64,000 bases of DNA, from positions 1-64,000 of the forward strand of contig NZ_SJPY01000003.1 in the NCBI RefSeq assembly GCF_007860185.1. Reading direction: 5' to 3'. Positions 44,582-54,701 of this stretch are shown here, piece after piece. The stretch's first letter is position 1; each line of letters starts with the position of its first letter. The notes beneath the pieces are model-generated. The model had not been told where the DNA came from. It saw nothing but the letters and a program-made list of their open reading frames with translations, and ran no database searches. Origin of the DNA: Novipirellula aureliae. GTDB taxonomy: Bacteria; Planctomycetota; Planctomycetia; Pirellulales; Pirellulaceae. The position numbers were made by a program, and so were the translations under genes.

Positions 44582-46165
44582 ATGCAGTACGGTTTCGAGA
44601 GCATCCTGCCGCCATTGATCGCGATTGTCTTAGCGATTCTAACACGTAGGGTTTTGCTGCCGTTGGCGACTGGCATCTTTGTCGGCGCGATTCTGCTATC
44701 ACTCGGCAAGCCTGATTCACGTTGGTTTGACAGTTTCATTCTGTTTCTCACGTCGCTTGTCGATTCGGTTCGTGATGCGGACCATCTAAAGACGCTTGCT
44801 TTTACGTTGCTGCTCGGAGCGATGGTTGGCGTCATGGAAATCGGTGGCGGCATTCGTTCGTTAATTTATCATTTGTCCAAACGCATCCGCTCGCGCAGTG
44901 GTGCAAAGGTGATGATCTCGCTCAGCGGTTTGATTATCTTCTTCGACGATTATGCCAACACACTACTGATTGGCGGGACGATGCGATCGACCGCCGATCG
45001 CTACAAGATTTCGCGTGCCAAGCTAGCCTATCTCGTCGACTCAACCGCGGCACCGGTTGCCGGTTTGTCGGTGATCAGTACGTGGACGGCGATCGAAATC
45101 AGCTACATCGCCGAAGGGCTCAAGGCGGCGGGTATCGACGATTCCTCTGCCGCATTTTCATTGTTCTTGGAGTCGATCCCCTATCGCTTTTATCCGGTGC
45201 TAGCGATTGTGATGGTGTTTTACGTGTCAATCAGTGGCCGTGATTTTTCGGCGATGCGAAAAGCTGAAAACGATGCGATCGATTCGAAAGAGGACGTCTT
45301 GCCTGAAACTTCCCTTAGCGATCCCGGTAGCGATTTACCGAGCCGACTTTGGTTGGCTGCCATCGTGCCGATTGCTTGCTGCGTCGCCGCAATTGTGTCG
45401 GTGCTGGTTTTCACCGGTAAACGCGAAGCTGAAGTCGCGCCCGAGATGAGTTCTTTTCGAGCAGCGATTGAAATTATCGGCAGCGGCGATTCCTACTTGG
45501 CGTTGATCCTCGGTGGCGTTGTGGGTTTGGTGATGGCGGTGTGGATGCACCGCCTACTCTCCAACTCTAGCAACTTTAGAATGTTGGAGGGAACGGTGCG
45601 GGGCGCGTTGCAGATGATGCCCGCGATGTTAATCCTCTGGCTGGCGTGGGCGTTGGGGGCGATGACTCAAAGTGATGCTCTCGATACGGGAGGTTATCTG
45701 TCACGCATTTTGTCCGATCGACTCGCGCCGGAGTGGTTACCGGCAACCGTTTTCCTACTGTCTGGCTTTGTCGCGTTTTCAACCGGGACGAGCTGGGGAA
45801 CGATGGCCATTCTGACCCCTTTGGCCGTTACCCTGTCGATTGAAATGGACTCGGTCGCTGGACCTGCCGGCGTGATCTGCTTGGCGACCTCGGGTGCGGT
45901 TTTAGCCGGAGCGATTTTGGGAGATCATTGTTCGCCGATCTCCGATACCACTGTGCTCTCGAGTCGTGCCAGCGGGTGCAATCATGTCGAGCATGTTCGC
46001 ACTCAAATGCCATACGCACTGATCGTCGGCAGTGTCGCAATCGTAGCGGGCTGCATCCCCGCGGCTTATGGAGTATCACCCTGGATTTGTCTGATCGTAG
46101 GCGCGGTGCTGCTGTGGTTCATTCTACGGCTAGTCGGTCGCCCCCCCTGTGCCCCAGGCTTCTAG
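44582..46165 (+). CDS. NhaC-family Na+/H+ antiporter
   Basis: 527 residues from the ATG at 44582 (MQYGFESILPPLIAIVLAILTRRVLLP). About 12 membrane helices. The family signature IIFFDDYANTLLIGGTMRSTADRYKISRAKLAYLVDSTAAPVAG (read in parts) and GAILGDHCSPISDTTVLSS are clear. Exchanges sodium for protons or carries a substrate with sodium. The last residues, RPPCAPGF, and the TAG stop come from the first palindrome of the repeat array, which has run into the gene end. Confidence 0.88.
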   Translation: MQYGFESILPPLIAIVLAILTRRVLLPLATGIFVGAILLSLGKPDSRWFDSFILFLTSLVDSVRDADHLKTLAFTLLLGAMVGVMEIGGGIRSLIYHLSKRIRSRSGAKVMISLSGLIIFFDDYANTLLIGGTMRSTADRYKISRAKLAYLVDSTAAPVAGLSVISTWTAIEISYIAEGLKAAGIDDSSAAFSLFLESIPYRFYPVLAIVMVFYVSISGRDFSAMRKAENDAIDSKEDVLPETSLSDPGSDLPSRLWLAAIVPIACCVAAIVSVLVFTGKREAEVAPEMSSFRAAIEIIGSGDSYLALILGGVVGLVMAVWMHRLLSNSSNFRMLEGTVRGALQMMPAMLILWLAWALGAMTQSDALDTGGYLSRILSDRLAPEWLPATVFLLSGFVAFSTGTSWGTMAILTPLAVTLSIEMDSVAGPAGVICLATSGAVLAGAILGDHCSPISDTTVLSSRASGCNHVEHVRTQMPYALIVGSVAIVAGCIPAAYGVSPWICLIVGAVLLWFILRLVGRPPCAPGF

Positions 46166-46950
46166 CCTGGGGGTATCCTGATCCCAGGCTAGAAGCCTGG
46201 GCCACGTGTGTTGGTCCCGTGTGGCCCAGGCTTCTAGCCTGGGGGCATCCTGCTCCCAGGCTGGAAGCCTGGGCCACGTGTGTTGCTCCCGTGTAGCCCA
46301 GGCTTCTAGCCTGGGGGGGATCCTGATCCCAGGCTGGAAGCCTGGGCCACGAGTGTTGGTCCCGTGTGGCCCAGGCTTCTAGCCTGGGGGTATCCTGATC
46401 CCAGGCTGGAAGCCTGGGCCACGAGTGTTGCTCCCGTGTGGCCCAGGCTTCTAGCCTGGGGGCATCCTGATCCCAGGCTGGAAGCCTGGGCCACGTGTGT
46501 TGCTCCCGTGTGGCCCAGGCTTCTAGCCTGGGGGCATCCTGATCCCAGGCTGGAAGCCTGGGCCACGTGTGTTGCTCCCGTGTGGCCCAGGCTTCTAGCC
46601 TGGGGGCATCCTGATCCCAGGCTGGAAGCCTGGGCCACGTGTGTTGCTCCCGTGTGGCCCAGGCTTCTAGCCTGGGGGTATCCTGATCCCAGGCTGGAAG
46701 CCTGGGCCACGTGTGTTGCTCCCGTGTGGCCCAGGCTTCTAGCCTGGGGGCATCCTGATCCCAGGCTGGAAGCCTGGGCCACGTGTGTTGCTCCCGTGTG
46801 GCCCAGGCTTCTAGCCTGGGGGCATCCTGATCCCAGGCTGGAAGCCTGGGCCACGTGTGTTGCTCCCAGGCTAGAAGCCTGGGCCACGTGTGTTGATCTC
46901 AGGCTAGAAGCCTGGGCTACGTGTGTTGATCCCAGGCTGGAAGCCTGGGC
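46153..46950. repeat. Array of about ten 72-bp units, each with two 19-bp palindromes
   Basis: Each unit holds CCCAGGCTTCTAGCCTGGG and CCCAGGCTGGAAGCCTGGG (or AGA centre), both perfect 8-bp arms around 3 bases, spaced by ggcatcctgat and ccacgtgtgttgctcccgtgt-type linkers. About three more single palindromes follow at the right (46865-46945). The 72-bp length is a multiple of three, so all frames stay open and give false long ORFs. It separates NhaC from the convergent prenyltransferase-fold gene. Confidence 0.9.
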
Positions 46951-53698: not shown

Positions 53699-54559
53699 AT
53701 GGCAAAAAAGCAACCAGCTAAGCTTCCGGCAACGGTAACCAGACGATTGGGAAAAGTTTCCGACGTCGATTTAGCGAAGGAGTCCGGTATCGATTTAGAA
53801 ACGATTCGTACCGCCCGGCAAATCCGAGGGATTCAACCTCGATTATGGACTGCATGGAAAGCGAAAGACATCAAATTGCTCGGCACGATGTCGGATGTTG
53901 AGGTTGCAAAACGGGTCGGTGTCACGAAAACGGCTGTTTGTCGAAAACGCCAAAGTCTTGGTATCGAACCGTATGGCGAATCGCGGAAACAGGCTCGGCA
54001 CCGTTGGACAAAGAAGCAGCTTGCTTGGCTGGGGAAAATCAGCGATGCGGAGGTTGGCCGACGGGTCGGACTCGATGCAACCACGGTGGCAACGAAGCGA
54101 GAATCGCTCGGCATCGAAGCGACGCGAAAAGGACGGGCGGCGCGAAAATGGTCCAAGAAGGAACTCTCTTGGCTCGGCAAATTGCCGGACGCCGAGATTG
54201 CTCGTCGGATGAAGATCGGACGCCGAAAAGTGATCGTGAAACGACGACTACTCGGTATCGAAAATCCGACGGTTGCCGCGGCCAAGGCGCGATGGACGCC
54301 AGAGGTCATCAAGATGCTCGGGAAAATGCCTGACGCGGTCGTCAGCGAAAAAACGGGGATTCCCAAATCGGCGATTAGCGCTTACCGAAGTCGTCATAAT
54401 ATCCGGATCAAACGCAAGCAACATGTTTGGACTCGCGAAGATATCGAGATACTCGGTAAAAAGTCGGATGCCGCGATTGCTAAAAAATTGGGACTGAAAC
54501 CATCAACGGTCGCTGCCAAACGACGACGATTTAAGTTGCCAACGGCGAAAGGCAAGTAG
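53699..54559 (+). CDS. Protein built of about six tandem HTH repeats
   Basis: 286 residues of period about 48. Each unit reads W(T/S)xxxxxxLGKxxDxx(I/V)Axxxgxxxxx(V/I)xxKRxxLGI: conserved Trp at 53, 103, 151, 199 and 244; LGKISDAEVGRRVG and LGKLPDAEIARRM are examples, the second helix-turn-helix part ending KRESLGIE. The first unit (about 10-47) lacks the Trp. The protein is very basic, so DNA binding along a long site is likely. Not recognised as a named family; Myb/SANT-like or phage-type repeats are the closest impression. No partner gene adjacent. Confidence 0.65.
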   Translation: MAKKQPAKLPATVTRRLGKVSDVDLAKESGIDLETIRTARQIRGIQPRLWTAWKAKDIKLLGTMSDVEVAKRVGVTKTAVCRKRQSLGIEPYGESRKQARHRWTKKQLAWLGKISDAEVGRRVGLDATTVATKRESLGIEATRKGRAARKWSKKELSWLGKLPDAEIARRMKIGRRKVIVKRRLLGIENPTVAAAKARWTPEVIKMLGKMPDAVVSEKTGIPKSAISAYRSRHNIRIKRKQHVWTREDIEILGKKSDAAIAKKLGLKPSTVAAKRRRFKLPTAKGK

Positions 54560-54600: not shown

Positions 54601-54690
54601 GTAGTGGATCTTGTTAAAGATCCTGCGTGGGGGATCTTTGACAAGATCCACTACCGGGCTGTGGGGGATCTTTGACAAGATCCACTACCG
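54601..54690. repeat. Three GGATCTT-centred palindromes
   Basis: GTAGTGGATCTTGTTAAAG followed by ATCC at 54601-54623, then GGGATCTTTGACAAGATCC-CACTAC type in the other sense twice (to 54690), the last two separated by CGGGCTGTG. Same family as 61818-61935 and near 20937 and 21211. Confidence 0.75.
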
Positions 54691-54701
54691 GGCTGATTCT
54701 C

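Follow-up and report, generated by a model that had tools for sequence, protein, structure and literature searches.

Proteins with several helix-turn-helix (HTH) domains and the DNA readers of homing nucleases are already known. Among the described systems closest to the protein examined here, the product of gene D5 of phage T5 binds double-stranded DNA cooperatively and is a model for DNA coating, and GcrA of Caulobacter has, besides its DNA-binding domain, a part that binds a sigma factor. The T5 record describes D5 as a protein that binds DNA and is required for replication and late transcription, and in the excerpt consulted of a study on a T5-like phage (PMC8624392) the D5 protein is placed among the major virion-associated proteins. 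In literature searches on tandem HTH arrays, D5, GcrA, GIY-YIG/NUMOD, Rhodopirellula palindromes and pQBR103, the titles and abstract openings of the matches listed do not describe the repeat treated below; searches on tandem, multiple or repeated HTH gave no base-recognition code for HTH arrays among the matches listed.

The repeat was examined in a stretch of 64,000 nucleotides from Novipirellula aureliae (Planctomycetota, Pirellulaceae; NZ_SJPY01000003.1, positions 1 to 64,000), referred to here as the window. The protein encoded by the array gene of the window belongs to a widespread and mostly unnamed kind of HTH-array protein, and what is new about this kind is that long, regular arrays with unit-specific sequences are found in hosts, plasmids and phages alike. 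The window protein is best explained as a stand-alone, site-directed DNA-binding array, most likely a single-gene regulator, a reading to which a probability of about 0.55 is assigned.

Repeat architecture and predicted fold

The array gene (Table 1) occurs as a single copy in the genome and its product carries no domain besides the HTH units. A repeat profile of 38 positions, iterated from the window protein and its relatives, finds six units of 25 to 56 bits each. Among 1,000 shuffles of the protein 18 gave any profile match and none gave more than one unit, a result that measures regularity and is not an independent discovery, since the profile was drawn from the window protein and its relatives. 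The original prediction of six tandem HTH units in one basic protein is borne out by the profile, by three helices in each unit of the structural model, by five Pfam HTH families above the cut-off and by a pI of 11.27 (73 Lys and Arg vs. 26 Asp and Glu). Its description of the repeat holds in part: the repeat is regular, but a strict period of 48 residues is not kept, as the LG[KT]xxD motif, present in all six units, starts at residues 17, 61, 111, 159, 207, and 252 (spacings of 44, 50, 48, 48, and 45). Only units 2, 3, and 4 have the KRxxLGI motif in strict form, the equivalent sites being ARQIRGI in unit 1, YRSRHNI in unit 5 and KRRRFKL in unit 6, and the Trp claimed as conserved is missing from unit 1.

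Table 1. Array gene, its six HTH units and the palindromes that follow it, in window coordinates.
Feature	Position	Strand	Details
Six-unit HTH array gene	53699..54559	+	286 aa, ATG to TAG
HTH unit 1, residues 15-45, without Trp, weakest	53741..53833	+	profile 25 bits; AF2 helices 11-16, 22-29, 33-43
HTH unit 2, residues 53-89	53855..53965	+	profile 56 bits; AF2 helices 55-61, 66-73, 77-87
HTH unit 3, residues 103-139	54005..54115	+	profile 52 bits; matched to GcrA DBD 5yiu
HTH unit 4, residues 151-187	54149..54259	+	profile 47 bits; two-unit model matched to GcrA DBD 5yiu
HTH unit 5, residues 199-235, KR to YR	54293..54403	+	profile 48 bits; AF2 helices 201-207, 212-219, 223-233
HTH unit 6, residues 244-280	54428..54538	+	profile 48 bits; AF2 helices 246-252, 257-264, 268-277
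Three GGATCTT-N4-AAGATCC cores (54606, 54632, 54666)	54601..54694	.	directly downstream of array gene

The Pfam families above the cut-off are HTH_AsnC-type (2.4e-10), HTH_24, HTH_23, HTH_50, and HTH_3, all of them partial HTH matches. The best HTH_AsnC-type stretch in the window protein covers positions 16–35 of 42, and a search of the whole genome with this family (PF13404) at E 0.001 returned no match, the array gene included, so that the HTH_AsnC-type label is weak. The 16 Pfam matches of the window protein up to E 10 include a weak one to TnsD (E 0.67) and no nuclease family; GcrA is likewise absent from them, although most matches above about 0.1 are lost to the HMMER filters. In NCBIfam there was no match near the cut-off. 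Among named families the closest one found is PHROG 323, "D5-like" (6.3e-21), which matches in four repeated stretches, the best of them at profile positions 94–206 of 319. With no single Pfam or NCBIfam family spanning the protein, the remark in the original prediction that the family was not a recognized one was fair.

Structure prediction, which had been proposed as a check, gave an HTH-type fold of three helices in all six units. The full-length AlphaFold2 (AF2) model, built from 17 aligned sequences, has a mean pLDDT of 80.5 and a pTM of 0.38, and a two-unit model has a pLDDT of 82.2 and a pTM of 0.46; given these low pTM values, no fixed packing of one unit against the next is predicted. 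The top solved neighbor of both models is the DNA-binding domain of GcrA (5yiu), aligned with unit 3 at Z 5.4 (43 aa, 1.9 A, 23% identity) and, in the two-unit model, with unit 4 at Z 5.7 (43 aa, 2.2 A, 33% identity); the GcrA-DNA complex (5yiv) reaches Z 5.3. FapR, Mos1, a resolvase HTH and homeodomains follow closely, the lead of GcrA being less than one Z unit, and most of the solved folds close to the models are three-helix domains that bind DNA, at modest Z values of 5–6. Foldseek searches of the PDB with both models gave no match that reached E 0.001, and the top non-significant matches include DUX4 and tandem engrailed homeodomains. By sequence, the window protein matches no PDB chain up to E 10. 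Against predicted viral proteins the model gave 42 matches at E ≤ 0.001, including a D5 protein and several endonucleases.

The strong positive charge of the protein also fits non-specific binding. A nucleoid-associated protein that has little sequence preference and bends or coats the chromosome, in the manner for which T5 D5 is the model, is a possible but rather unlikely alternative. The high pI and the D5-like family label both speak for it, as do the parts that D5 takes in replication, late transcription and the virion. Long Lys-rich N-terminal tails, of a kind common to many nucleoid proteins, also point this way and are present in three relatives of one genus (L007, L008, and L009).

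Relatives and the individuality of the units

Relatives of the window protein are scattered over bacteria, plasmids and viruses. Within the Pirellulaceae 28 of 241 genomes match, one of them weakly, and in a draw across the phylum 20 of 392 do, eight of these only at E 7e-9 to 5e-4. Named genomes, when scanned, yielded 54 loci, mainly in Pirellulaceae and other Planctomycetota, Verrucomicrobiota, Paraburkholderia and Comamonas, and viral contigs contributed 11 loci. Counting ORFs with three or more units, 74 distinct ones were found, ranging from 3 to 17 units: thirteen Comamonas loci have three, and the Pirellulaceae relatives have mostly four to six, with a separate group of ten. In this ten-unit subfamily (L019–L024 and L028) the fifth unit is consistently weak (12–25 bits). 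In a quick-method tree of 23 proteins, nine of the ten six-unit proteins form a clade together with one four-unit protein (SH-aLRT 97), which splits into genera g1 plus g14 and g45; the remaining six-unit protein (L056) falls outside, and the deep branches are long and unresolved.

Other arrangements of the repeat occur as well. In a MAG contig (L066:973-4141) an ORF of 17 units overlaps one of 6 units in another frame, the two being possibly a single frameshifted gene; the units of one ORF resemble each other by up to 84%, so the array has probably grown here by recent tandem additions. Proteins of Chromohalobacter (L101:7956-8552) and of a viral contig (L108:3116-4117) read as having in common an extra domain C-terminal to their HTH units, and Pfam, run on the latter, named no family.

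A Paraburkholderia relative matches 96 plasmid records, 86 of them from Pseudomonas. Among the 30 of these matches listed, 27 fall on genes labeled hypothetical (some with a second gene also under the match) and three on no listed gene. In the Pseudomonas megaplasmid pQBR103 (NC_009444) tblastn reports 12 places with array relatives. This plasmid was considered as a cluster of repeat genes and rejected, only one ORF with repeats (six units, immediate neighbors hypothetical) being found within 285–330 kb.

One relative with a domain of another type comes from Vibrio phage 424E50-1 (L118). Its protein starts with a GIY-YIG catalytic domain (Pfam, 2.9e-11), which is followed by array repeats, three clear units of 22–40 bits and two weak ones of 5–10 bits; it is assigned to PHROG 7168, homing endonuclease, and is 29.7% identical to a viral relative (L105) over 66% of the latter. 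The 424E50-1 record is absent from the five records that the window protein matches at 1e-5. Related Vibrio phage genes are labeled GIY-YIG nuclease, homing endonuclease or hypothetical protein. A homing nuclease has to be directed to its DNA site, a task that in the 424E50-1 nuclease very probably falls to the array; most GIY-YIG enzymes carry NUMOD domains at that place, according to the part consulted of a survey of this group (PMC1564403).

Seven viral loci (L105–L111) offer a second context. In five of them the repeat gene is preceded, with one small gene in between, by a gene for a DnaB-type helicase; a sixth (L110) is truncated at that place. A common gene, the putative large terminase, is found downstream of the repeat gene in six of the seven. 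Pfam, run on one of these loci (L111), confirmed DnaB_C and Terminase_2 and gave no name to the putative large terminase, an identity that we infer from reading. Such surroundings are plausibly a fitting place for a regulator of replication or of late genes.

The units of one array differ from each other in a conserved way. Across ten six-unit orthologues (the near-copy L004 was dropped) units of the same index are 60% identical, vs. 39% between units of one protein, and the corresponding values in seven ten-unit proteins are 51 and 34%. Residues specific to the unit index are overrepresented in helix 3 (columns 25–34) by column shuffling (p 0.027 in the six-unit and p 0.014 in the ten-unit set), helix 3 ranking 6th and 1st, respectively, among 28 contiguous windows; the enrichment is mild and rests on 10 and 7 related proteins. 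As far as sequences can tell, this individuality fits units that read different bases, short of proving it. Units that are not interchangeable, with helix 3 enriched in index-specific residues, argue against a protein that merely coats the chromosome, and so do the patchy presence of the gene in the family and the service of the same repeats in a homing-type nuclease, which needs a site.

The interpretation preferred here is that of a flexible string of six three-helix HTH units resembling those of GcrA, Myb and homeodomains. The third helix of each unit would enter the major groove of DNA, and the six units together, one per stretch of sequence, would read a long composite site with an affinity and specificity beyond those of any single unit. 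In the planctomycete the protein would most likely regulate transcription or replication from defined sites. The long target suggested in the original prediction is plausible in this composite form, because the phage repeats follow a GIY-YIG domain and each unit keeps a sequence of its own.

All six units are kept in the ten orthologues, and comparisons of the window gene with two orthologues gave a dN of about 0.25 with dS values of 2.9 and 1.7, a third comparison giving no dS. The gene appears to be under purifying selection, "purifying" being the only safe statement since dS is saturated.

Gene neighborhoods and the palindromes

Across the window and 20 wider loci no operon partner was recognized, and the upstream regions of the window gene and five orthologues contain no conserved block that could be an operator. 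The neighbors in the window read, from their ORFs, as beta-galactosidase-like and MetF-like. A Methyltransf_30 gene, with Pfam run on two of the three copies, occurs 0.5–1.1 kb from the array gene both in the window and in two genomes of g14. Five loci of genus g45 with arrays of 4–6 units (L035, L036, L037, L038, and L042) have a gene for a RecQ helicase next to the array gene; it is divergent and 14–147 bp away in the four loci with the array ORF listed (Pfam on L035). At L032, L033, and L042, in genomes G037 and G087 of g1 and G197 of g45, the array gene has GlnE, sigma-70 factor and ABC ATPase genes at distances of up to about 9 kb, the nearest at 195 bp (Pfam on one copy each). A protein kinase/WD40 gene is found 0.2–2.2 kb from the array gene in G037, G013, and G077 (Pfam on one copy), with relatives 8–10 kb away in two more loci. 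Gene order around the array gene is shared by the loci of g14, by those of g45 and, in part, across g1 and g45. These recurring neighbors look like inherited housekeeping surroundings, left by vertical descent at a drifting chromosomal place, and not like an operon; none of them names a regulated pathway.

The neighborhoods bear on another explanation, in which the array derives from an HTH array of a phage or plasmid (that of a homing endonuclease, for instance), either as a remnant without the nuclease or as a copy recruited by the host, and now has little function or counters incoming elements. The relatives in Vibrio phages, in the plasmid records and in viral contigs agree with such an origin, as does the patchy presence among genomes, but purifying selection, the retention of six units in ten orthologues, the supported clade and the gene order shared within and partly between genera (the last two being signs of vertical descent) make it improbable. 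Nor does a role in defense gain much from PADLOC, whose best match, mad1 (1e-4 for the window protein, 7e-8 for a relative), consists of short, weak, HTH-like stretches only.

The original prediction had named as a perhaps fitting target the palindromes that fill this genome. GGATCTT-N4-AAGATCC is present in 377 copies, three of which (54606–54683) lie within 125 bp after the stop codon of the array gene, two of them in a 34-bp tandem. The window holds seven cores in all (21211, 54606, 54632, 54666, 61823, 61851, and 61895), and elsewhere in the genome the palindrome is often tandem, with periods of about 28–39 bp. A second palindrome, CCCAGGCT-N3-AGCCTGGG, forms a tandem array with a period of about 72 bp at window positions 46149–46820; it has 88 exact cores in the genome and occurs in four others of the 241 family genomes, with at most four copies each, and is of little use as a control since so few other genomes have it.

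That the protein binds the dispersed GGATCTT-N4-AAGATCC copies, and organizes or silences them, could be examined by asking whether homologues co-vary with the repeat family, as the original prediction had proposed. The palindrome is patchy, being present in 61 of the first 199 family genomes, and at least 20 copies were found there in 7 of 24 carriers of the array gene vs. 6 of 175 other genomes (genus-stratified permutation p 0.00025). Over all 241 genomes the counts are 7 of 27 carriers, the weak match G084 being left out of the carrier list, and 9 of 214 others (p 0.004 by the same permutation); both p values overstate the association, because species within genera are not independent. The association was not repeated in 42 held-out genomes, in which the three carriers, all of genus g11, have 1, 10, and 0 copies, and g11 non-carriers have up to 104 and 41, in assemblies 80–82% complete that leave the absence of the gene uncertain. 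Orthologues are also encoded in genomes nearly devoid of the palindrome, with one copy in G037 (same genus, 69%) and none in G149 and G119, so an obligate link between gene and palindrome is untenable. Conversely, non-carrier genomes have 125, 107, 95, and 83 copies, and among the first 50 loci (L001–L050) the palindrome is found only at that of the window itself (L001). The palindromes were dropped as the main target on the strength of the held-out genomes and of the orthologues that do without them, and their binding by the array protein is considered highly improbable.

Comparison with known systems

As a proposed site-directed, single-gene regulator built from HTH units, the window protein has points in common with several known systems and differs from each of those compared. 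To T5 D5 the window protein is linked by the PHROG 323 profile, and D5 adjoins the DnaB-like helicase gene D6 much as the five viral relatives lie close to a DnaB-type gene. On the other hand, BLASTP of D5 against the window protein gives E 0.75, the repeat profile scores only 9 bits on D5, D5 matches its own PHROG at 243 bits over positions 3–270 in one stretch, and it is without the LGKxxD and KRxxLGI repeats. With BLASTP similarity nil, the relation is one of analogy plus a remote profile match.

The GIY-YIG nuclease of 424E50-1 shares, in its C-terminal part, the repeat of which the window protein has six units, and differs by the N-terminal nuclease domain that the window protein lacks. 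Single units align with the DNA-binding domain of Caulobacter GcrA (5yiu and 5yiv) over 39–43 aa at 1.7–2.2 A and 23–33% identity; GcrA has one such domain vs. six in the window protein. TnsD/TniQ selectors resemble it in having several C-terminal HTH domains in a target-choosing protein (as given in the consulted part of PMC10293859), whereas the window protein consists simply of short repeats in series and reaches TnsD only by the weak Pfam match mentioned above. From AsnC/Lrp regulators it differs by its partial HTH_AsnC-type match and by the AsnC ligand-binding domain, for which Pfam gave no match.

A broader proposal, which is speculative and held to be unlikely, would unite these observations: bacteria, plasmids and phages would share a modular GcrA/Myb-like HTH scaffold for reading DNA, its number of units and its third helices tuned to long addresses, fused to a nuclease in phages and used as a regulator elsewhere, with the planctomycete protein as the six-unit version. 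Arrays of individually conserved small HTH units would be a compact, all-helical means of addressing long DNA sites, and the binding site of one member would provide a first handle on many unannotated genes as well as a test of a unit-by-unit code. The window protein shares with TAL effectors, zinc-finger arrays, Myb R2R3 and DUX4 the use of small DNA-binding modules in series; TAL effectors and zinc fingers are built from a different module, and Myb and DUX4 have only two or three. If the broader proposal were true, these proteins would do with HTH units what TAL effectors and zinc-finger arrays do with their own modules, and might be programmable.
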